Assembly: GCA_026391715.1 (NCBI GenBank)
Contig: JAPLDO010000018.1
Span: forward strand, 1 to 36,935
Direction of reading: 5' to 3'
Source: Bacteroidota bacterium
GTDB lineage: Bacteria > Bacteroidota > Bacteroidia > Bacteroidales > FEN-979
DNA: 36,935 nucleotides
Made by a program: the position numbers and the translations under genes
Part shown: positions 3 to 34,697 of the stretch, one piece after another
Layout: every line of letters begins with the position of its first letter
Position numbering within the stretch: the stretch's first letter is position 1
Notes under the pieces: model-generated
The model's database searches: none
Told to the model about the DNA's origin: nothing
What the model saw: only the letters and a program-made list of their open reading frames with translations

Positions 3-1559
3 TTCAGAAAACGCCTCGACGAAATAGTTGAACTTACCCGCGATTTCCGGGAGGTTGTGATTACCAGCCGCACCCAGTATTTCCCCGGACAGGAAAATCA
101 AGCCTACGAACTGAGAGTCCCGCGTTTCGACGAAAAAGGATTTCACACACTTGCCAAATTGTATCTTTCACCTTTCCACAGTAAAGAGGTAAACCGGTAT
201 TTGTGCAAAAAATATGGATACTTCGCCTTTTGGAACCGCAAAAAGAAACAGACGGCTCTGAGCATAGTCGAAAATTCCCCCAACCTGATGGTTCGCCCGA
301 TGTTATTAGCCTACATTGATTATCTCGTTGACAGCAAAAAAATTTTCGCCACAACCTATCAGATATACGAAACCCTCATTGAAAAATGGATTGATCGCGA
401 AGCCGTTAAAAGAAAATATGAAAGTACATCGCGGGAAAAATTTAAAAATGATCTCCATTCCTTTTCCAATTTTGTTGCTATCGAAATTTATAAGCAACAC
501 AAACAGACAGGAAATTTGAGTATCTCAAAGGAAATTGCAACCGGATTGGGTAAACAAGAAAACCTCAACTTAAAGGATTACGAAATAACCGGACAATCGC
601 TCCTCACCCGCGATATCAACCACAACTGGAAGTTCGCGCATAAATCAATACTCGAGTTTTTTCTTGCCAAACAGTATAATGTTAATATTGAGTTTGCGAA
701 AAACTTTGAATTTGCAGGAATGGATATGGCATGTAAATTTTTTGAAGAGGTTAGTAATTTCAAATTCCTTAGAGGCGGCATTTTCACCATGGGCAGCCCT
801 GAAAATGAAACAGACAGAAACAAAAATGAAACTCAGCATGATGTAAAACTTCGTGATTTTTTTATGTGCCGGTTTACAGTTACAGTTAAGGAATTTAAAA
901 CGTTTATTGATGAAACCAAGTATCAAACTGACGCCGAAAAGGGGGATGGTAGTTCCTTATGGAATGGTAAAGAATGGAAAATGGAAAAAGGTATAAACTG
1001 GCGTTATGATGTCTTTGGTAAAAAGAGAGAAGAAAACGAATACGATCATCCGGTCATTCATGTGAGCTGGAACGATGCAACAGCCTATTGCGAATGGTTT
1101 TCGGAAAAAACAGGAAAGAAATTCCGTCTGCCCACCGAAGCCGAATGGGAGTATGCCTGCCGTGCAGGAACACCTACGCCATTCAATACGGGAGATAACA
1201 TCACTACCGACCAGGCAAATTATAATGGAAATTATCCGTATAAAAAAAATAAGAAAGGCAAATATCGCGAAAATACAGTTGCTGTGGATAGTTTCGATCC
1301 CAATGGCTGGGGCTTGTACAACATGCATGGCAACGTTTGGGAATGTTGCGGCGACTGGTATGGCGAAAAGTATTATGACGAATGTCTCAAAGCAGGCGTG
1401 GTGGCGAATCCCTTGGGACCTTTGGATGGCTCGTACCGCGTTGTTCGCGGCGGCAGTTGGTACTACAGCGCCCGGCGCTGCCGCGCAGCTTGCCGTGGCA
1501 GCAACGCTCCCGGCAATCGCTACGACGTTATCGGTTTTCGGTTGGTTCTTATCTCATAG
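3..1559 (+). CDS. NACHT/STAND NTPase fused to FGE-sulfatase (SUMF1) domain, DGR-type variable protein, 5' partial
   Basis: The frame is open from the window edge, so the 5' end is missing. The first codons read RLDEIVELTRDF then VVITSRTQYFP, which resembles the Walker B/sensor region of a NACHT NTPase; the P-loop must lie upstream. FAHKSILEFFLAKQY (~nt 636-680) is the typical STAND winged-helix motif. From ~nt 760 an FGE/SUMF1 domain follows: LRGGIFTMGSPENE, HPVIHVSWNDATAYCEW, RLPTEAEWEYACRAGT, GWGLYNMHGNVWE, RVVRGGSW and a terminal IGFRLV. This C-type-lectin fold is a usual scaffold for DGR-diversified proteins. The C-terminus (nt 1437-1559) has the codon pattern of a variable repeat. Known family role: STAND NTPases sense ligands and signal, often in defence. 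Inference: the FGE tail is the diversified sensor. FGE enzymatic activity is not implied. Confidence 0.85.
   Translation, partial: FRKRLDEIVELTRDFREVVITSRTQYFPGQENQAYELRVPRFDEKGFHTLAKLYLSPFHSKEVNRYLCKKYGYFAFWNRKKKQTALSIVENSPNLMVRPMLLAYIDYLVDSKKIFATTYQIYETLIEKWIDREAVKRKYESTSREKFKNDLHSFSNFVAIEIYKQHKQTGNLSISKEIATGLGKQENLNLKDYEITGQSLLTRDINHNWKFAHKSILEFFLAKQYNVNIEFAKNFEFAGMDMACKFFEEVSNFKFLRGGIFTMGSPENETDRNKNETQHDVKLRDFFMCRFTVTVKEFKTFIDETKYQTDAEKGDGSSLWNGKEWKMEKGINWRYDVFGKKREENEYDHPVIHVSWNDATAYCEWFSEKTGKKFRLPTEAEWEYACRAGTPTPFNTGDNITTDQANYNGNYPYKKNKKGKYRENTVAVDSFDPNGWGLYNMHGNVWECCGDWYGEKYYDECLKAGVVANPLGPLDGSYRVVRGGSWYYSARRCRAACRGSNAPGNRYDVIGFRLVLIS
1437..1559 (+). other. Putative DGR variable repeat (VR) at the 3' end of the NACHT-FGE gene
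   Basis: Framework residues GGSW, AR, CRAA, CR, P, NR and IGFR are those conserved in FGE-type DGR targets. Between them, the usual Asn-rich template positions hold TAC TAC AGC (1461-1469), CGC (1476), TGC (1491), GGC AGC AAC GCT (1497-1508) and TAC GAC GTT (1521-1529). All twelve end in C or T, as expected if AAC/AAT template codons were changed only at their adenines. Adenine is scarce on the coding strand here. No matching template repeat is visible elsewhere in the window. Confidence 0.6.
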
Positions 1560-2936: not shown

Positions 2937-4205
2937 TTAAGTAAAATCGGGATATCTGAAAACCTTGTTTTCATAATTTCGCAGCAATAGAGAATCGTTT
3001 TCCCTGCCAACCTTATAGTCGGGGAGGAGAGGAATTTTTCCGCCGCCGCCCGGCGCATCCACCACATAAGTAGGAACCGCATAGCCGCTCGTATGCCCGC
3101 GTAACCCTTCGATAATCTCAATGCCCTTTTCCACCGACGTGCGAAAATGTCCGGTGCCAACAACAGGATCGCATTGATAAAGGTAATATGGGCGAACTCT
3201 GATTCTAAGCAGGCTATGCATCAGCTTTTTCATCACAGCCACATCATCGTTGACGCCTTTAAGCAACACCGTCTGACTTCCAAGTGGAATTCCGGCATTC
3301 GCCAGTTTCTCACATGCAGACTGAACTTCCGTAGTGATTTCATCGGCATGAGTAAAATGGATGCTCATGTATAGCGGATGGTACTTTTTCAACATTGTCA
3401 CCAGTGGTAGCGTAATTCGCTGTGGGAGAACAACGGGAATTTTTGTGCCGATTCGTATAATCTCAACATGCGGAATATTTCTTAATCGCGAGAGCAGATA
3501 TTCAATTTGAAGGTCAGGCATGGTTAGTGGATCTCCACCCGAAACCAATACATCCCTCACCTCATTATGCTCTTCAATATACTTCAGACCAACTTCCCAT
3601 GCCTTAACGCCAATATGACATTTGTCCTTAGCCACCATTCTGGTGCGTGTGCAATAGCGGCAATAGGTTGAGCAAAATCCGGTAACAAGAAACAGAACCC
3701 TGTCGGGATAACGATGAACAATATTCGGAACCGGACTGTCATGTTCCTCAGATAACGGATCGGCATCCTCGCCGGGATGGAGCAGAAATTCATCGAACAA
3801 AGGAACCACGCTTTTCCTTAAAGCCTGTTCGGGATTATCAGGATCAAGCAGACTAAGGTAATATGGAGAAATCCGGATCGGGAGCGACTGACCGTTATGT
3901 CCGGCGGGTTTCACCTCATTGTCAGATAATTTAATAAAGTGGGAGAGTTTTTCAATGGATCGTACACTGTTTTTGATTTGCCATTGCCAGTTGTTCCAGT
4001 CTTGACTGGATGCTTCCGGGTAAAATGTCTTCAGAAATTCAAGCGAACGGCAGCTTAATGCAGGTTTTTCCTGATCAATGTTCGTTTTGAAATATTCAGC
4101 TAACAGGGTTGTTTCTTCTTTGGAGGTGCGTTGACCTGGAGGTTCTTCCTCGTCCACAAATTCAATGTGGGGAATGATCATTTTTTCGGTGGGATTCTTT
4201 TCCAT
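2937..4205 (-). CDS. kamA: KamA family radical SAM protein, lysine 2,3-aminomutase-like
   Basis: The protein has 422 residues, close to the family size (~416). The radical SAM cluster motif is C178-x3-C182-x2-C185, followed by T-R187. Residues matching the lysine-binding aspartates of clostridial lysine 2,3-aminomutase are present: D346 in YLYQCD and D383 in VVDAPGGGGK. The PLP lysine is K390. The spacings of 37 and 44 residues equal those of the characterised enzyme (D293, D330, K337), which favours lysine over glutamate as substrate. The reaction would be L-lysine to L-beta-lysine using SAM, a [4Fe-4S] cluster and PLP. None of the usual partners (kamDE, kce/kdd, or the beta-lysine acetyltransferase ablB) is nearby, so the pathway is unclear. 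It is preceded by a 208-nt gap shared with the divergent hydrolase. Confidence 0.85.
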   Translation of the reverse strand: MEKNPTEKMIIPHIEFVDEEEPPGQRTSKEETTLLAEYFKTNIDQEKPALSCRSLEFLKTFYPEASSQDWNNWQWQIKNSVRSIEKLSHFIKLSDNEVKPAGHNGQSLPIRISPYYLSLLDPDNPEQALRKSVVPLFDEFLLHPGEDADPLSEEHDSPVPNIVHRYPDRVLFLVTGFCSTYCRYCTRTRMVAKDKCHIGVKAWEVGLKYIEEHNEVRDVLVSGGDPLTMPDLQIEYLLSRLRNIPHVEIIRIGTKIPVVLPQRITLPLVTMLKKYHPLYMSIHFTHADEITTEVQSACEKLANAGIPLGSQTVLLKGVNDDVAVMKKLMHSLLRIRVRPYYLYQCDPVVGTGHFRTSVEKGIEIIEGLRGHTSGYAVPTYVVDAPGGGGKIPLLPDYKVGRENDSLLLRNYENKVFRYPDFT

Positions 4206-4352
4206 TTGAGCTTTTTCGCTTTCTGAGTAATTGTCAAAGTTTGTTAAAGAAATAAAATTAATCTAACTATTTAATATTCTGGTTTTTAAACAATGTTTGA
4301 TTTAACAGGATCATCACTGAAAATCAGGGTGCAAATAAGGTGACTTTTTATG

Positions 4353-4360
4353 TATTTTTG
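4353..4360 (+). promoter_or_regulatory. -7-like promoter element for the alpha/beta hydrolase
   Basis: TATTTTTG matches TAnnTTTG and lies 53 nt before the start at 4414, within the divergent gap 4206-4413. No clear -33 element is seen. Confidence 0.35.
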
Positions 4361-4413
4361 ACATTCTTACGCAATTATTTTTCAACAAAATATTGTTAAT
4401 AACGTAAACCTTT

Positions 4414-5184
4414 ATGAAGTTATTTTATCGTCAGTTCGGCATTGGGCAGCCGGTCATTATTTTGCATGGACTTTTCGGCGTTTCTGATAACTGGGTGGCG
4501 TTTGGCCGTCGCATTTCAGAGCATTTCGCGGTGTATATTCTCGACCTTCGCAATCATGGGCAATCCCCTCACAGTGGAGTCTTTGATTTTCCTGCGCTTT
4601 GTGACGATCTGCTTGAATTGATTGAAGATCATCGTCTCGCGGATATTTTTTTAATCGGACATTCTCTTGGAGGAAAGATTGCGATGTTTTTCGCACTGCA
4701 ACATCCCGAACTTGTTCAAAAACTAATAGTAGTAGATATTTCATTACGGAAATCACCTCCCGACCGCGAACATCAGCTCCTGTTGAACGCGATGATGTCG
4801 GTGGATTTTACCGTCGCCCGTTCCAGAAGCGATGTTGAAAAGCAGTTGAGCAAACAGGTTAAAAGTTTGAAACTTCGTCAGTTTTTATTGAAGAATGTTT
4901 ACTGGCTCGACCGGAATACGCTTGATTGGCGTATCAATTTGAAAGCAATTAATGAAAATTTGTTATCAGTTTTTGAAGGAGTTAGTCAAGCCGGGATATT
5001 CGGGGCGCCTGCTCTGTTTATCAGGGGTGGTTTGTCTGATTATATTACCGATTCCGATATTCCTGACCTGAAAACAAAATTCCCCGGAGCTGAGGTGAAA
5101 ACCATTGCGAATGCGTCGCACTGGGTTCACGCTGATGCGCCCGGGGAATTTTATGAGGTTGTTAAAACCTTTTTCGATAGATGA
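4414..5184 (+). CDS. Alpha/beta hydrolase, YbfF-like esterase
   Basis: The product has 256 residues with the compact alpha/beta hydrolase layout. It shows an oxyanion-hole HGLFG (residues 18-22), the nucleophile elbow GHSLGG with S84, and a catalytic histidine H236 in SHWVHADAP. The acid is probably the Asp in RGGLSDYI near residue 208. HGLFGVSDNW and the SHWVHADAP ending are characteristic of the YbfF acyl-CoA/ester hydrolase group. It has no signal peptide, so it is cytoplasmic. The substrate cannot be read from sequence. Its stop codon directly abuts that of the convergent gene: TGATCA gives TGA on both strands. Confidence 0.85.
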   Translation: MKLFYRQFGIGQPVIILHGLFGVSDNWVAFGRRISEHFAVYILDLRNHGQSPHSGVFDFPALCDDLLELIEDHRLADIFLIGHSLGGKIAMFFALQHPELVQKLIVVDISLRKSPPDREHQLLLNAMMSVDFTVARSRSDVEKQLSKQVKSLKLRQFLLKNVYWLDRNTLDWRINLKAINENLLSVFEGVSQAGIFGAPALFIRGGLSDYITDSDIPDLKTKFPGAEVKTIANASHWVHADAPGEFYEVVKTFFDR

Positions 5185-6120
5185 TCAATATCGCGTAATC
5201 TCAATTTTTGAAACCGCAGTCTTTACAGTCAGCATTACCTTATTCTTAGCGCTGGTAAAATTGGCGGTTTGATAAATACCATTCCCGGTTTTTGTAAAAC
5301 CTTCGAATTCCTTACTGATCATAAAAGATTCCGATGTAATCTGGCAGGCTGATTCTTTCGGAACCTCCACCTTTATTGACGATGCGCCGGCATTAAAGGT
5401 CATTACCGTAAGCTGACTTTTATTTCCTATTTTAATATCAAGGGCAGAGGCGCCCGCGTCAATCGTAGTAGTGTCAATTTTATAATCTCTCAAATCCATT
5501 GTGATCTCAGCGGCGCCGATATCGAAATCAAGATTCCATGATGGTTTGTCGTTGAGCTTAATATCAACCTTGTTATCGCTAACGGAATGACGGATGGCTG
5601 ATTTTTCAAGCGATAGCGTAATCTCTTTGCGACCGTTATTATCGTTTGTGGTAATTGAATAGTTACCGATATCTCCGGTTTTGTTGAATGAGAGAAAGTC
5701 GGAGGTAATGCCCTGAAGATTAAAATTTCCCGCTGCCGCATCTAATTTCAATAAGCCTTTCCCGGTCAGCGTATCATACGGAACACTCAGATTTTGAGGC
5801 TGGTAATTGTATGTGGTAGTATCATCTTCTTCGTCCCAGTCGCTGTTATTGAAACCTCTGAAATGGTTAAAATGTTTCCAGGATGAGTTTTCAGATATCC
5901 TGTTGAAGAATATCACGGTAAGGGCGAGAACAGCTACGAGCGCAATAATTTTAATGCAATCCTTTATCGGAAGGATTGAAATTCCCCAGAGTATCAGGAT
6001 GAGGGGCCACAGGCTCCAGATTGCCATAAAACCGAAGTCGAGTACTCCAAAATTATTCAACATAAACAGAACCCCAATCGCGATCAGGAGAATTGCCCAG
6101 AAAACATGACGATATTTCAT
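5185..6120 (-). CDS. LiaF-like membrane protein (TM region plus C-terminal LiaF/adhesin-like domain)
   Basis: The 311-residue protein has an N-terminal block of about four hydrophobic segments in the first ~75 residues (WAILLIAIGVLFMLNNFGVL, WSLWPLILILWGISILP, IIALVAVLALTVIFF), matching the LiaI/LiaF-like TM region. From ~residue 120 there is a beta-rich domain (TLTGKGLLKLDAAAG, IDAGASALDIKIGNKSQLTV, VEVPKESACQI) like the LiaF C-terminal domain, a right-handed beta-helix type fold. Known role: LiaF relatives sense or modulate cell-envelope stress. It lies 12 nt downstream of a PspC-domain gene on the same strand, so the two are probably one operon. The exact signal is unknown. Confidence 0.75.
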   Translation of the reverse strand: MKYRHVFWAILLIAIGVLFMLNNFGVLDFGFMAIWSLWPLILILWGISILPIKDCIKIIALVAVLALTVIFFNRISENSSWKHFNHFRGFNNSDWDEEDDTTTYNYQPQNLSVPYDTLTGKGLLKLDAAAGNFNLQGITSDFLSFNKTGDIGNYSITTNDNNGRKEITLSLEKSAIRHSVSDNKVDIKLNDKPSWNLDFDIGAAEITMDLRDYKIDTTTIDAGASALDIKIGNKSQLTVMTFNAGASSIKVEVPKESACQITSESFMISKEFEGFTKTGNGIYQTANFTSAKNKVMLTVKTAVSKIEITRY

Positions 6121-11769: not shown

Positions 11770-13008
11770 TTATCCTCTTTTGGGCAAAAAAAAGAGGCAT
11801 GCATCGCCGTAACTTAGAAAACGGTATCCTTTAGCAAGGGCGAAATCATAAACCTCTTTCCATACTGGTCCAATCATTGCCGCCACAAGCAGGAGCAGAG
11901 TGCTTTGAGGTACATGGAAGTTGGTAATCAGTCCGGAAAGTAGGCGATAACGATATCCTGGCACAATCATCAAACGGGTTTCTCCAGAATAGGAATCCAG
12001 ATCATTTTTCTTCAGATATTTTAGCAGCGATTCCAGGGATTGATATGACGGAATATCTGCGGAGTGATTATTCTGGTATGGCGTCCATTGCGACACTATG
12101 GGATGATTAAGCGTATCTCCGTTTGAAAGCCGGCAACCCAGCCAGTACAAACTTTCGAGTGTTCGGGCTGCCGTTGTGCCAACTGCAAAAACTGGACGAT
12201 CAATGTTTTCCAGTAGTTGCTCAATGGTTTCTCTGCTCACAATGATTTTCTCAGGGTGCATCAGATGGTCTCCGATCAATTCGGTAATTACCGGACGAAA
12301 AGTGCCGGCGCCCACATGAAGCGTTACATTCAGGCTCTGAATATTTTTCTGCCGGAGACTTTCCAACACGCCTTCCGTAAAATGAAGTCCGGCAGTGGGC
12401 GCTGCAACCGATCCATCCTTTGCAGCATAAATAGTTTGATAGCGGTCAATATCAGAAATTTCGGGAGTCCGGTTGATGTAAGGAGGCAGAGGCGTCAATC
12501 CTGCAAGTTCAAGCACAGCGCTAAAAGAGATTTCCGGAGGGTCCCATTCAAACAGGACGCTATGACTGCCATCTTTCAAATCGGAAGTTCTGGTAGCTGA
12601 AAGATTATAAGTTTGTCCCTCGCTGATAACCTGAAGGATAAGCGTTCCGGTTTTCCATCTTTTGAGGTTGCCAATTAAACATTTCCAGGTTGTTCCTGAT
12701 TTTTGCAGGAATGCTGTTTGCAATTCTGCTGACGGAGCGAGAGGCTCAAGACAGAATATTTCAACAGCCGCGCCGGTGGACTTGTGAAATATGAGACGGG
12801 TACGGATAACGCGGGTATTATTGAATACCAATAAACTATGTTCGGGAAGATGGCAGGCGATATTGGAAAACACATCCTGACTAATCTGCCGGTTCCGGTA
12901 AATCAGAAGTTTAGATTCATCTCTTTCCTGCAACGGAAATTGCGCAATCCGGTCTTCCGGTAGATTATAGTGATAATCTGCAATTCTGATTTGGGTTGGA
13001 TCATTCAT
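11770..13008 (-). CDS. queA: S-adenosylmethionine:tRNA ribosyltransferase-isomerase QueA
   Basis: The start is chosen at ATG 13008 (412 residues) because the conserved sequence begins at MNDPTQIRIADYHYNLPEDRIAQFP; the frame continues nine codons upstream to a GTG. Family hallmarks are LPEDRIAQFPLQERDESKLL, LLVFNNTRVIRTRL, AAPTAGLHFTEGVLESL (the classic motif), VTLHVGAGTFRPV, GTTAARTLESLYW, LITNFHVPQSTLLLLVAAMIG and a terminal FLSYGDACLF. Role: transfers and isomerises the ribosyl moiety of SAM to 7-aminomethyl-7-deazaguanine in tRNA, forming epoxyqueuosine (queuosine pathway). No other que genes are in the window. The C-terminal YGDACLF replaces the usual YGDAMLI, a minor variation. Confidence 0.96.
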   Translation of the reverse strand: MNDPTQIRIADYHYNLPEDRIAQFPLQERDESKLLIYRNRQISQDVFSNIACHLPEHSLLVFNNTRVIRTRLIFHKSTGAAVEIFCLEPLAPSAELQTAFLQKSGTTWKCLIGNLKRWKTGTLILQVISEGQTYNLSATRTSDLKDGSHSVLFEWDPPEISFSAVLELAGLTPLPPYINRTPEISDIDRYQTIYAAKDGSVAAPTAGLHFTEGVLESLRQKNIQSLNVTLHVGAGTFRPVITELIGDHLMHPEKIIVSRETIEQLLENIDRPVFAVGTTAARTLESLYWLGCRLSNGDTLNHPIVSQWTPYQNNHSADIPSYQSLESLLKYLKKNDLDSYSGETRLMIVPGYRYRLLSGLITNFHVPQSTLLLLVAAMIGPVWKEVYDFALAKGYRFLSYGDACLFFLPKRG

Positions 13009-29546: not shown

Positions 29547-32500
29547 ATGAAAAAATCTACGTTGTTTCTTTGGATTGTTTTTACATTTATAACTTTGAAA
29601 GTAATTTCACAGGATGCGGCTCCAATCCTGCTTGGTTTACCAACGCCTGCATTATGCCATGGTGATAGTAATGGCTCAATAGACCTCACAGTAATTGCAG
29701 GAATGCCGCCATATACCTATTTATGGAGTACCGGGGCAACTACAGAAGATATCAGCGGATTAGCGGCAGGTTGGTATTCTGTAACCGTTACAGAAGCGAC
29801 TTCTCTGGCATCTACCGGCAGTTGGGAAGTTACACAGCCGGCAGTACTGGAAATAGTCCATGCCGCCCCAAGAAATCCTTCCTGCAATGGCGCAGACAAT
29901 GGCGCTATATTAATTACGGTTTCCGGAGGCACTCCCCCTTTTACATATACATACGAATGGAGTAATGGTCAGACAACTCAAAATCTGCCCTGCTGCCTTT
30001 TTGCGGGGTGTTATACCGTGACTATAACTGACATCAACGGGTGCCATGCTTCTGGCAACTGGTGTTTGATCGAACCTGAAGCGCCACTTACAGTTGCCGG
30101 TAGCGTCACATCTTTAATCTGCAACGGAGCTACTAACGGGTCCGTAGATCTCACGGTAAGCGGAGGAACCTATCCCTATGAATATACATGGAGCAATGGG
30201 CAGTCAACTCAAGATGTCAGCGGGCTTTCTGCCGGTGATTATTCAGTTACTGTGAGGGACGTTTTGGGTTGTCCAAATACAAGCCAATGGACAGTTAATC
30301 AACCTGAAGGGATCACCCTCAGCGTTACAGAATCGCCACCACTCTGCCACGGCGATGCCAACGGAGCCTTAGACCTGACGGTTTCAGGCGGTACGCCTGG
30401 CTATTTGTACCTCTGGAACACCGGGGAAACAACACAAGATATAGCCGGCTTAGCGAGTGGTTGGTACTCGGTAACTGTGACTGATGCGAACACATGCCAA
30501 ATCAACAGTAGTTGGGAGGTTACTGAGCCGGATATACTTACTCTCAATGGAATTGCGTCGCCTGTGTTGTGCCGGGGAAGCAGTAACGGATCCATTGAAG
30601 TTACTGTTAGCGGAGGAACTTCGCCATATCAGTATTCATGGAACAACGGCGCAACAGTTAAAGATATCGCCGGGCTAACTGTGGGCTGGTTTACTGTTAC
30701 CATAACCGATGCGCATACGTGCCAGACCAGCGGAAGTTGGGAAATTACCCAGCCGGAAGCGCTTTCACTCAGCGGAACGGCATATCCTGTTTTATGCAAT
30801 GGAAGTAATACCGGTTCCATCGGAATTACGGTTAGCGGCGGAATTTCTCCATATAAATACTTATGGAGCAACGGCGCAACGGTTGAAGATGTCAGCGGAT
30901 TATTGGCAGGTTGGTATATTGTGACAATAACCGACGCTAACACTTGCCAGATCAGCAATAGTTGGGAAGTTATACAACCGAATGCGTTCTCGCTCACCGG
31001 GGTGGCAACTCCGGTAGTTTGTAATGGGGGAAATAACGGATCCATTGCCGTTACAGTAAGCGGCGCTACTTCGCCCTATAAATATTTATGGAGCAACGGG
31101 GCAACTTTGAAAGAGATCACAGGGCTTTCAGCAGGATGGTTTACTGTGACAATAACCGATGCTAATTTTTGTCAGACAGATGGAAGTTATAAAGTTACCC
31201 AGCCGGATGCAACTGCGATCAACGGGACGTTATCTAATGTTTTGTGTAATGGAGGTAATTCCGGATCAATCCTTGTAACAGTTAGTGGGGGAACTTCGCC
31301 ATTTCAATATTTATGGAGCAACGGCGCCACAGGGAACGAGATAACAGGATTAACAGTAGGTTGGTTTACTGTAACAATAACCGATGCGAATAACTGCAAG
31401 GCAAGTAATAATTGGGAAATTACCCAGCCGGAGGCGCTTTCGCTCACTGGAACTGTATCGCCTGTGTTGTGCAATGGAGGCAATAGCGGCTCCATCGTAA
31501 CTACTGTAACTGGCGGAACTTCGCCATTTCGTTATTTATGGAGCAACGGCGCAACGGTTAAAGACAATACAGGATTAACGGCTGCCTGGTATTCAGTGAC
31601 TATTTCAGATGGAAATAGCTGCCAAATCGGTGGAAACTGGAATGTTACCGAACCGGATCCTATATTTGTGGATGCAGGCGACGACCAGCAATTATGCCAG
31701 CAGAATATTACCGTTCTTTCAGGAAACTGGCCGCCAACGGGAAGCTCAGGTAACTGGACACTCGTTTCCCGACCTCCGGGAACTCCCTTAGTCACTCCTT
31801 TCCCTGTAAATTCTCCAATCGCTACCGTTGTAGGTTTACTCCCGAATGAAACGGTTCCATACATATTCAAATATACTATTACAAAGTCTTTTCCCGACGG
31901 ATCTACATGCATTGTTTCCGATAATATGCAGGTATTCAACAAACATTATCCATCGCCGCCTTATGCTGGTCCTGACAAGAACCTTTGTATGAATGTAATT
32001 CCAATGCATGATACAATGACTGCCAACGCCCCTTTATATGGAACAGGAATGTGGTCGCAAGTGCCAGGAGGACCAATAGCGACAATTGCCAATACTCTTG
32101 ACCCACATACTGGAGTAACATACAACGCTGCCGGACGGTATGCCTTCCTTTGGACAGTTAACAATGGATCATGTTTGCCAAACGAACCAAATCAGGACTC
32201 GGTTATTATTAAAATCTATGCCCCGGCGGCAGTTTACGCAGGAGCGGATGTTATAACCTGTAGCGCATCGCCAATTACAATATCAGATTCATGGAAATCC
32301 GATTCCTGTATGACCGTGCTGTGGAGTACCAACGGAACCGGCGCTTTCAATTCTCAAACTATTCTTCATCCAATCTACACTCCAAGCGCCGGCGACATTG
32401 CAGCAGGAGGCGTTACTCTTACGCTTCATGGCGCTATTGGCTGCTGTAGTCCGTGCGGACCTGCCGCTGTTCTTGATTCAATGATAATCACCTTTCACCA

Positions 32501-34697
32501 CAGCCCAATCGCAACTGTTTCGTTTGTTGATGCGAGTTGTAATGGTTCAGGTGACGGATCGCTCACCGTCGCTGTTTCCAGCGGCGTACCTCCATTTTTA
32601 TATTTGTGGAGTAATGGACAAACAACGGCAACCGCAACAGGTTTAATCGCAGGTAGCTATACTGTAACCGTTACCGGTGATGACGGTTGCCAGGGTACAG
32701 CAGGCGGCACAGTGCATGAGCCAGCGGTACTTTCATTAAGTGGCGTTTCCACTGATGTAAGTTGTTTTGATGGCAACGACGGCGCTGTGAATCTGACAAT
32801 TTCGGGGGGAACATCGCCATACAGTTTTATTTGGAGCAATGGATCTACAACAAAGGATATCAGTGGGCTTAATAAAGGCGCTTATGCTGTAACCATTACC
32901 GATTTCCACTCATGTTCAGCCACCGGAAGTTGGTTTATAAATGAACCGCCTGAGTGGAACATCGGAATACTCGGAGATACAACGGTATGTTGCACTACCA
33001 GCGTCCCCGGCGTTCTTTATACTTATGCCGCTACGGTTAGCGGAGCTTATGCGCCGCCTGTAACCTATCAATGGGTTGTTGAAGGAGGTACAATTGAATC
33101 TGGCCAAAATTCGCTTTCGATTACCGTAAGGTGGAACTGCTGCGGAAGCGGGAAAGTGTGGCTGACAGTGAATCAGGGACCAATACCTTGTTCGCTTACC
33201 ACCTTTATTCAGGTCGTTATTAATCCTACGCCTGCGCCGGTTATAAGCGGACCTGTTTCGGTAATTTCAGATTCGGCAAACTTTCAATATTGTACGCCAT
33301 ATATTGCCAACCATCTATATACGTGGACTGTTATTGGCGGAACAATTGCCAGCGGCTGGGGAACCAACTGCATAACGGTAAACTGGGGTCCTTACCCCGC
33401 TTGCGGATGCGGTGAAGTGACTGTTTGCGAATCAACGCAGCTTATCGCCGGCGGCGCTGGTTGCACAGCATGTACGACAATGAACATAACTATCTTACCG
33501 AACGACTCGACAGTTAATTTGCAAGGATTTGTAATGTATGACAATCCTCCGGCGAACACACCGTTAAATGGGGTCGTGGTTACGCTGAAGAATTCGCTGG
33601 GAAATGTTTTAGGTAGTGTTGCCACTGCAAATAATCCGTCAAACGGCGAACCCGGTTATTACTCCTTTACAAATCTGCCGGATGGCGTTTATAATCTTTC
33701 GGCAACCTCCACTGACGTGTGGGGAGGCAACAATGCAACCGATGCGCTGATTATCCAGTTGAATATTATTGGAACATACCCGCTCTATTTCCTTAGAAAT
33801 ACGGTAGCCGACGTTAACCAGAGTATGAGTATCACGGCGCTGGATGCGCTTTACGTAAAACTCCGCACCGTCAACATGATCACATCATATCCTGCGGGCG
33901 ACTGGAAGTTTAGCGACGCCACGTTCACACTGACTAACAGCGCCATTGTCAACCTGATAGGACTCTGTGTTGGCGATGTAAATGGTTCAAACATCCCAGA
34001 CGGGTTAAAGGGAACATCTTATGTTAACGCTATAAATGATGACGTAAAGTTAATCCCTGTGAACGAATCGTTCAACTACTCAATCAGCGCCGGGCAACTG
34101 GGAGATCTTGGGGCTATGACGCTTGTTTTGGGATTTAATCCGAAAAAGTACGAAATAGAAGAGGTTGTTTCCTCGCTCGAAGGATTGCAGTATGGCGTTA
34201 AAGATGGAACCATAGCCATTGCCTGGTCCGACGTCAAACCAATCACAGTAAATGAAGGCGATCCTGTTTTCGTTTTACGGATGAAGGCAAAAGCGCCTGT
34301 ATTCCAGCCTGAACAAATCTTTACAATTCAGTCGGAAAGTGAATTTGCTGACCGCAATGCCCGGAAATATGATAATTACACGCTTAAAATGTCGGATGTG
34401 ACGACCGAATCGCCAAGCGCTATTTTCTCACTGACCAACTACCCGAACCCGTTTTCTGAAACTACTGAAATTGACTATACAATTCCTGTTGCCGGACATG
34501 TACGGCTTACGCTTACAGATATGGTAGGGATAACATTGAAAACTCTTGTAAACGCCAATCAGGCGAAAGGTTCATACACAATCACTGTTGACCCGCGCGA
34601 GATAAATTTGAAAGCGGGTCTTTATCTCTACAAATTTGAAGTTGAAGGAACTTCTGAGTCGTATAAAAAAACAAACCGGATGATTTTTACTAGGTAG
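29547..34697 (+). CDS. SprB-repeat surface adhesin with T9SS sorting domain
   Basis: The 1716-residue protein has a signal peptide (MKKSTLFLWIVFTFITLKVIS). Nine SprB-type repeats follow at residues ~35-703, each with C-x-G-x2-x-G-S-I-x2-T-V-S-G-G-T-x-P-Y and W-S-N-G-x-T; two more occur near residues 997 and 1072. The conserved Cys codons of repeats 3-9 lie exactly 225 nt apart (30120, 30345, 30570, 30795, 31020, 31245, 31470). The region ~710-990 resembles PKD/gliding-motility adhesin modules. Around 1330-1490 is an SdrD-B-like segment (GFVMYDNPPANTPLNGVVVTL) plus dockerin-like loops (ADVNQSMSITALDALY, GDVNGSNIPDG). A cohesin-like domain follows, and the T9SS type A tail (~1632-1716: LTNYPNPFSETTEIDY, LKAGLYLYKF). 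Role: exported cell-surface adhesin of the gliding/T9SS class; the ligand is unknown. Confidence 0.9.
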   Translation: MKKSTLFLWIVFTFITLKVISQDAAPILLGLPTPALCHGDSNGSIDLTVIAGMPPYTYLWSTGATTEDISGLAAGWYSVTVTEATSLASTGSWEVTQPAVLEIVHAAPRNPSCNGADNGAILITVSGGTPPFTYTYEWSNGQTTQNLPCCLFAGCYTVTITDINGCHASGNWCLIEPEAPLTVAGSVTSLICNGATNGSVDLTVSGGTYPYEYTWSNGQSTQDVSGLSAGDYSVTVRDVLGCPNTSQWTVNQPEGITLSVTESPPLCHGDANGALDLTVSGGTPGYLYLWNTGETTQDIAGLASGWYSVTVTDANTCQINSSWEVTEPDILTLNGIASPVLCRGSSNGSIEVTVSGGTSPYQYSWNNGATVKDIAGLTVGWFTVTITDAHTCQTSGSWEITQPEALSLSGTAYPVLCNGSNTGSIGITVSGGISPYKYLWSNGATVEDVSGLLAGWYIVTITDANTCQISNSWEVIQPNAFSLTGVATPVVCNGGNNGSIAVTVSGATSPYKYLWSNGATLKEITGLSAGWFTVTITDANFCQTDGSYKVTQPDATAINGTLSNVLCNGGNSGSILVTVSGGTSPFQYLWSNGATGNEITGLTVGWFTVTITDANNCKASNNWEITQPEALSLTGTVSPVLCNGGNSGSIVTTVTGGTSPFRYLWSNGATVKDNTGLTAAWYSVTISDGNSCQIGGNWNVTEPDPIFVDAGDDQQLCQQNITVLSGNWPPTGSSGNWTLVSRPPGTPLVTPFPVNSPIATVVGLLPNETVPYIFKYTITKSFPDGSTCIVSDNMQVFNKHYPSPPYAGPDKNLCMNVIPMHDTMTANAPLYGTGMWSQVPGGPIATIANTLDPHTGVTYNAAGRYAFLWTVNNGSCLPNEPNQDSVIIKIYAPAAVYAGADVITCSASPITISDSWKSDSCMTVLWSTNGTGAFNSQTILHPIYTPSAGDIAAGGVTLTLHGAIGCCSPCGPAAVLDSMIITFHHSPIATVSFVDASCNGSGDGSLTVAVSSGVPPFLYLWSNGQTTATATGLIAGSYTVTVTGDDGCQGTAGGTVHEPAVLSLSGVSTDVSCFDGNDGAVNLTISGGTSPYSFIWSNGSTTKDISGLNKGAYAVTITDFHSCSATGSWFINEPPEWNIGILGDTTVCCTTSVPGVLYTYAATVSGAYAPPVTYQWVVEGGTIESGQNSLSITVRWNCCGSGKVWLTVNQGPIPCSLTTFIQVVINPTPAPVISGPVSVISDSANFQYCTPYIANHLYTWTVIGGTIASGWGTNCITVNWGPYPACGCGEVTVCESTQLIAGGAGCTACTTMNITILPNDSTVNLQGFVMYDNPPANTPLNGVVVTLKNSLGNVLGSVATANNPSNGEPGYYSFTNLPDGVYNLSATSTDVWGGNNATDALIIQLNIIGTYPLYFLRNTVADVNQSMSITALDALYVKLRTVNMITSYPAGDWKFSDATFTLTNSAIVNLIGLCVGDVNGSNIPDGLKGTSYVNAINDDVKLIPVNESFNYSISAGQLGDLGAMTLVLGFNPKKYEIEEVVSSLEGLQYGVKDGTIAIAWSDVKPITVNEGDPVFVLRMKAKAPVFQPEQIFTIQSESEFADRNARKYDNYTLKMSDVTTESPSAIFSLTNYPNPFSETTEIDYTIPVAGHVRLTLTDMVGITLKTLVNANQAKGSYTITVDPREINLKAGLYLYKFEVEGTSESYKKTNRMIFTR
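29648..31660 (+). repeat. Tandem SprB repeat array (nine units, 225-nt period)
   Basis: Units 3-9 are spaced exactly 225 nt (75 residues); units 1-2 and 2-3 are 228 and 237 nt apart because of small in-frame insertions. Units 5-9 are the most alike, with near-identical stretches such as tatttatggagcaacggcgc. Recombination could change copy number without frameshift. Confidence 0.9.

Follow-up and report, generated by a model that had tools for sequence, protein, structure and literature searches.

A NACHT-FGE gene ending in a DGR-type variable repeat with no matching template in the assembled genome

A NACHT-FGE gene probably split between two contigs

The window, i.e., the whole 36,935-nucleotide stretch of DNA that we analyzed, opens with the 3′ part of a NACHT-FGE gene (positions 3-1559, + strand; 518 codons). 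The frame is uninterrupted and its translated C-terminus reads ...RVVRGGSWYYSARRCRAACRGSNAPGNRYDVIGFRLVLIS*. Base 1 of the window is the first base of contig C8, hence the gene is truncated at the contig start. The closest homologue found is a complete NACHT-FGE protein of 704 residues in genome G046 (L101, 465-2579), which is 48% identical over query residues 1-516. When the N-terminal part of this homologue was used to search the window's genome (5.02 Mb in 256 contigs), two matches were returned at E ≤ 10: the first bases of the window's gene (C8:3-71) and C243:11327-11929, which encodes 201 codons starting at a homologous ATG. Contig C243 terminates at base 11930, within the NACHT-FGE frame. 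The two contigs do not overlap, and about 12 codons are absent between them with the G046 protein as reference. Based on this homology, the C243 and C8 parts appear to be the 5′ and 3′ ends of one gene.

Walker A (ADSGMGKTT) and Walker B (LLLDAFDE) motifs can be read in the N-terminal part on C243, together with a hydrophobic stretch that we recognized by our own reading. The C-terminal part of the NACHT/STAND module lies at window positions 3-740 (+ strand; boundary approximate, from alignment to the homologous loci L041 and L186) and consists of VVITSR, which we take to be sensor 1, and a helical part. The protein is probably a membrane-anchored NACHT (STAND) NTPase. Pfam called no NACHT domain; nSTAND3 scored 21.0 in the G046 homologue, below the cut-off of 27.2, and the NCBIfam match to EruA NACHT (9.5e-4) also fell below its cut-off. 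PADLOC returned zero matches for two NACHT-FGE proteins.

Upstream of the gene, C243 carries on the same strand a transglutaminase-core ORF, an ORF with no Pfam match, a Peptidase_S8 gene, and ORFs with weak LapA_dom and CHAP matches. Directly 3′ of the gene, in the window, lies a PDDEXK_2 gene (1845-2801, - strand; PD-(D/E)XK nuclease family transposase). Farther along, a 1716-residue protein that combines 11 stretches of SprB repeats with a Por secretion tail (29547-34697, + strand) points to a Bacteroidota host, and we infer from this domain content that the genome is a Bacteroidota MAG.

The C-terminal domain has an FGE-type fold

The NACHT module is followed by an FGE-sulfatase (CLec-type) domain (765-1547, + strand; Pfam 1.9e-62, 213.8 bits). 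Both its sequence and its predicted fold match FGE and the Treponema denticola protein TvpA (2y3c) in the PDB. The AlphaFold model of the domain by itself (residues 251-518) had a mean pLDDT of 85.6. We set aside the model of the whole protein, for which the mean pLDDT was 58.2 and in which most of the variable repeat described below scored 29-44 and its end 73. The predicted structure is consistent with the C-terminal CLec-type fold of DGR targets, and TvpA is itself an FGE-like DGR variable protein; TvpA is not known to have a NACHT module.

The domain shares its fold with human formylglycine-generating enzyme (SUMF1), with 35% identity in Foldseek alignments to 1y1h and others. The SUMF1 catalytic pair, which we take to be C336 and C341 (residue numbers from the PDB entry titles), is not kept: the position of C336 is a variable tyrosine codon in the window's domain, and that of C341 is a gap. 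We therefore do not expect this domain to be an FGE enzyme.

The gene ends in a probable variable repeat and a 3′ target-site signature

Comparison with the template of a DGR on contig C149 of the same genome placed a variable repeat (VR) in the last 132 nt of the gene (1428-1559, + strand). The earlier note, made from the sequence of the window, had put the VR at 1437-1559; its end stands, while its start moves nine bases upstream, to about 1428. Codons that align to AAC or AAT of the C149 template start at 1434, 1443, 1461, 1464, 1467, 1476, 1491, 1497, 1500, 1503, 1515, 1521, 1524 and 1527 (+ strand), and the third base is C or T in every one of these 14 codons. The variable codons that the note had listed are present, and its observation that they end in pyrimidines extends to this larger set. 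Because 127 of the 225 FGE codons 5′ of the VR are pyrimidine-ending, a score of 14/14 would arise by chance with a probability of ~3e-4.

The target site extends beyond the VR to about 1592, as judged by comparison with C149. This region carries a 3′ target-site signature (1557-1592, + strand) that is common to targets in register with a template and that consists of the stop codon TAG, TT and, farther on, TGAGCTA. We searched for it as TAGTT, 15-35 nt, TGAGC (window copy at 1557-1590) among 60 non-template FGE tails, of which 17 had the signature and 43 did not; six template tails were kept apart. Tails were dropped when they did not match the pattern, exceeded 70 residues, had an RGG-to-GFR stretch of other than 32 residues, were empty fragments, were shorter than 118 nt or were identical copies. 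Six of the 17 signature tails agree at every non-A site with a template from the genome that carries them. The mean mismatch to the C149 template at non-A sites was 0.21 in signature tails and 0.45 in the others. The signature is not universal: a target in G053 (L093; 1/94 non-A mismatches) lacks it, and the targets at G266:C34 and G046:C180 have TGAGC without TAGTT at the stop.

We considered whether the tail reflects ordinary divergence of an FGE domain, with the pyrimidine pattern due to chance or codon bias. FGE tails vary here in any case, with mean mismatches at the adenines of the C149 template of 0.58 in signature tails and 0.60 in the others. A pyrimidine score of 14/14 was found in 14 of the 17 signature tails (range 12-14) and in 6 of the 43 others (range 7-14), counts that include near-identical relatives and so are not independent. 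Two of these six are DGR tails, namely L093 and a decayed C149 relative (L029). The codon pattern by itself is hence suggestive, and the pattern combined with the 3′ signature is strong evidence. The framework of the VR also argues against ordinary divergence. Relative to the template of a congener (G007), the window's VR has 18/93 non-A mismatches, of which 15 are synonymous and 3 are not, which indicates that the amino-acid frame was kept while the A-containing codons changed. Together with a mutational hot spot confined to the VR in a sister-species pair (see below), these observations make ordinary divergence an unlikely account of the tail. The VR anatomy and the 3′ signature instead support the earlier proposal of a DGR-like variable tail on a NACHT-type STAND protein. 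On the other side, the window's VR has a 17-nt run over variable codons in common with a signature-less tail (G015:L042).

The genome contains three DGRs

An RVT_1 search of the genome found six places, five of them above the cut-off, and revealed three DGRs, on C149, C225 and C169 (the last with two reverse transcriptases, RTs); at every one of these loci a template and a target are in register. The earlier note had called for a search for a DGR RT elsewhere in the genome, and these loci answer it. On C149, the RT lies 3′ of an HRDC-domain ORF and is followed by a 132-nt template (C149:202696-202827). Three caspase-FGE genes surround this template (locus L020, C149:196000-208000), with 18, 21 and 19 mismatches at its 35 adenines and 0/97 elsewhere. 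C225 carries an HRDC-RT-template cassette with one adjacent FGE target (17/31 A and 0/101 non-A mismatches). The two tandem RTs of C169 adjoin a target with another type of C-terminus (a sub-threshold Lcl_C match, E 0.0075); across the ~180 nt that precede its stop, 20/20 mismatches to the template face template adenines. The place on C201 is a fragment with stops. We rejected the RT on C92 as a DGR because its top NCBIfam matches are retron-type, all below cut-off, and it lies beside ORFs read as CRISPR-associated; at this locus (L019, 4739 bases), the retron-like RT is flanked by ORFs read as type III CRISPR and cas1/cas2.

A fourth FGE gene on C149 (C149:194808) shows 12 non-A mismatches; its last 66 nt account for 11 of these, and a T run there appears to have caused a frameshift. 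The C225 cassette has as a neighbor a gene for an LRR-Roc-COR-TIR protein (L018, C225:42000-58000; 3355-6012, - strand). Tails on contigs C159 and C147 differ from the C225 template at 14 and 16 non-A sites overall, of which 0 and 2, respectively, fall within the final 66 nt, and the RVT_1 search found no RT on either contig. From sequence, these tails are best read as products of partial homing in trans by the C225 element. The note had suggested a remote element that serves several paralogues; this fits C159 and C147, at least in their 3′ halves, and is not supported for the window's gene.

No template in the assembly accounts for the variable repeat

Could one of these elements diversify the window's gene? 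In favor of this, the C149 and C225 targets have the same domain and a comparable framework, and the C225 element appears to reach genes on other contigs. However, the window's VR differs from the C149 template at 20/97 non-A and 21/35 A sites and from the C225 template at 32/101 non-A and 20/31 A sites, whereas the targets adjacent to these templates have no non-A mismatches. Homing starts at the 3′ end of the VR, and 10 of the 20 non-A mismatches to the C149 template sit in the last 66 nt. We thus rejected both elements as the generator and regard service of the tail by either one as very improbable. C169 was also rejected, as its template is in register with the other target type and the best non-A mismatch count of the window's VR within 8000 nt (C169:1-8000) was 43.

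A sequence matching the VR with mismatches only at template adenines, as the note had envisaged, was sought across the assembly and not found. DNA searches of the 5.02-Mb assembly found no third FGE-type template. The window's VR as query recovered its own locus plus ten matches of 14-18 nt, of which one lies within the C225 target. The C149 template as query returned the C225 template, the three C149 targets, the decayed relative and, besides short matches, 31 nt of C159; it misses both the window's VR and C147, and thus this is a search for template-like sequence rather than for all VRs. Among six templates from this and other genomes, the lowest non-A mismatch count was the 18/93 of G007, and those of G250, G276 and G266 had 23, 26 and 33 non-A mismatches over 132 nt; none shows for the window's VR the A-only pattern of a DGR target. 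A scan of genome contigs yielded one distant locus, and a scan of viral contigs yielded none.

The note's statement that the window itself holds no RT or template was borne out: the best other 132-mer, taken as a template, has 34 non-A mismatches. The first of its two options, a retroelement that acts from upstream, was not, because the 5′ part of the gene lies at the end of C243 and we found no RT or FGE-type template on that contig, including the ~11 kb upstream of the gene (best 132-mer, 37 non-A mismatches). An RT just beyond the contig edge was accordingly rejected. Its broader expectation of a retroelement elsewhere holds in that DGR RTs do exist at other loci, and lacks support in that none of those found appears to serve the window's gene.

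The 3′ arm of the signature resembles template flanks

The right arm of the signature is in part the reverse complement of known template 3′ flanks. The cognate flank scored highest in 10 of 11 target-template pairs (eight template loci). Of these 11 pairs, 4 are partial or cross-species: C147 and C159 (3′ half only), G046:C180 with the G266 template, and G266:C34 (2 mismatches near the end). The exception is G276, although its VR is in register with its own template (0/99 non-A mismatches). In all six C149- or C225-type targets of the window's genome, the flank of the target's own template scored above that of the other. This preference could arise from relatedness alone. If it holds, arm-flank complementarity offers a testable rule for assigning templates to targets. 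For the window's arm, the top flank was that of C149 with a score of 14, above 300 shuffles (p 0.003) and below the 15-24 seen in the 11 pairs, which points to another template. By eye, differences between the left arm and the template flank were often C-to-T or A-to-G (uncounted).

Inverted repeats 3′ of the VR matter in BPP-1, according to passages of PMC3240598. As DNA, the stretch 3′ of the window's VR folds with a z of -1.4, not clearly above shuffles. We rejected the argument that a DNA hairpin proves an IMH, since z ranged from -1.4 to 0.84 over eight stretches (seven behind VRs and one control). Single-molecule RNA energies, computed with no shuffle control, were lower behind most signature tails; two signature-less tails reached -15 and -15.6.

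A hot spot is limited to the variable repeat in a sister-species pair

Genome G266, of the same genus as G046, has nearly the same NACHT-FGE gene. Across the 1198 aligned nt 5′ of the VR, the G046 and G266 copies show 4 mismatches along with 6 gap columns. Inside the VR they have 35/132 mismatches, and the 124 nt that follow the stop contain none. The excess in the VR over the rest of the coding sequence is highly significant (Fisher p 5e-33). After the stop, 277/279 nt are identical without gaps, and similarity then ends. This sister-species pair thus shows a hot spot limited to the VR. The loci that carry these genes (L041, G046:C81; L186, G266:C167) are 99.7% identical across the gene outside the VR, with similarity ending ~280 nt after the stop, and the gene looks like a transferred cassette.

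The AA sites of AAY codons, 28 in all, account for 19 of the 35 VR differences, and the remaining 104 sites for 16; 8 of the 35 are at third bases, so the change is not purely A-type. Block replacement may therefore have acted beside A-directed mutation. In G046, the NACHT-FGE VR and the VR of C180 have 26 identical nt in common, variable codons included. The template of G266 (C34) has 2 mismatches to the C34 target and 1 to G046:C180, near or at the end, and 25 and 26 mismatches to the two NACHT-FGE VRs. NACHT-FGE VRs without a matching template hence occur in three genomes, i.e., that of the window, G046 and G266.

These data raise the question of whether an orphan VR could acquire its variable codons second-hand, through gene conversion with template-coupled VRs at other loci as donors. 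In favor of this idea, the C180 VR that shares the 26-nt identity is itself in register with the sister species' template. It is, however, a single case, and the longest in-register run between the window's VR and the tails of its own genome spans 12 nt and includes a single variable codon (GTT), in the C225 target. We therefore consider gene conversion an unlikely source of the window's tail. A wider scheme would keep template-less STAND sensors of this group variable: one or a few DGRs would diversify the VRs next to them, and cassettes would then reach orphan VRs on unlinked genes, such as the window's, through gene conversion or by way of an address-like 3′ arm. This scheme seems similarly improbable.

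A probable STAND sensor with a lost or unassembled template

We consider it likely, on sequence evidence, that the window's gene is a DGR target, a STAND sensor with a diversified tail, that has been uncoupled from its template or whose template is unassembled. The putative NACHT (STAND) NTPase would have a C-terminal FGE/CLec domain that ends in a DGR VR, with this DGR family's 3′ target-site signature behind it. As its anatomy suggests, the present tail would have arisen when an AAC/AAT-rich template was copied, with errors, into the VR. That template, presumably a relative of the C149 and G007 templates, was not found in the assembled genome, and for this reason we call the VR an orphan in the assembly. 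The DGR may have been lost, may lie in unassembled sequence, or may reside in other cells of the population. The diversified tail would bind a ligand and the NACHT module would act as the switch; the S8-peptidase and transglutaminase-like products encoded on the same strand are candidate effectors.

One sub-case is that a further FGE-type DGR, with its RT and template in an assembly gap or binned out, still diversifies the VR in trans. This sub-case falls within the preferred reading, so the likelihoods given to the two overlap. Several observations elsewhere favor it. Three signature-bearing tails of G052 (L161, L170 and L173) differ by 1, 2 and 1 third bases per pair against 13-16 first bases, yet have 21-24/95 non-A mismatches to the sole G052 template seen, and G052 has one such RT at E ≤ 1e-20; the common third bases despite the template mismatch therefore imply a hidden second template. 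Similarly, G046:C180 matches the G266 template except at its terminal base, yet G046 has no RT above the Pfam cut-off, and the last 66 nt of the C147 and C159 tails keep register with the C225 template, on contigs where no RT was found. Against this, the assembly is listed as 98.99% complete, and the search with the C149 template recovers the C225 template and no third one of FGE type. We thus view a live, unassembled DGR as possible and less likely than not to be the case here.

If the uncoupled-target reading is correct, the gene would encode a bacterial NLR-like sensor whose recognition tail is mutation-targeted and anticipatory, while orphan VRs would record a repertoire with no visible generator. 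Such sensors would escape surveys that link each target to an RT close by; as stated in part of PMC8144416, the survey reported there would not detect remote targets.

Relation to known systems

This kind of system is already known, and the missing template is what stands out here. According to sections of PMC10907252, DGR 3 of Thiohalocapsa PB-PSB1 has a NACHT NTPase fused to a DGR-diversified CLec domain, with an adjoining S8-family peptidase, as proposed for the window's gene and its C243 neighborhood. The Thiohalocapsa peptidase has WD40 repeats, whereas the one on C243 has no further Pfam domain. Those sections propose antigen sensing for NACHT-CLec targets, one of them with an S8 peptidase neighbor. 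They also judge some DGR 4 and 5 targets to be diversified in trans and describe template-unmatched targets, with structural variants that carry intact parts. The target VRs of DGR 7 lack a perfect counterpart among templates in the rest of the genome, as does the window's VR in its assembly. Unlike the Thiohalocapsa systems as described there, the window's gene has no RT or template that we could find on either of its contigs, and its host is, judging by domain content, a member of the Bacteroidota.

NTP-dependent conflict systems offer a second parallel. In the portion of PMC7159879 that concerns them, an FGS/FGE variable domain is found on a conflict protein, with the template nearby or elsewhere in the genome. 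Those DGR cases are vWA/VMAP ternary systems, chiefly of cyanobacteria and gammaproteobacteria, and in this they differ from the NACHT-FGE gene of the window.
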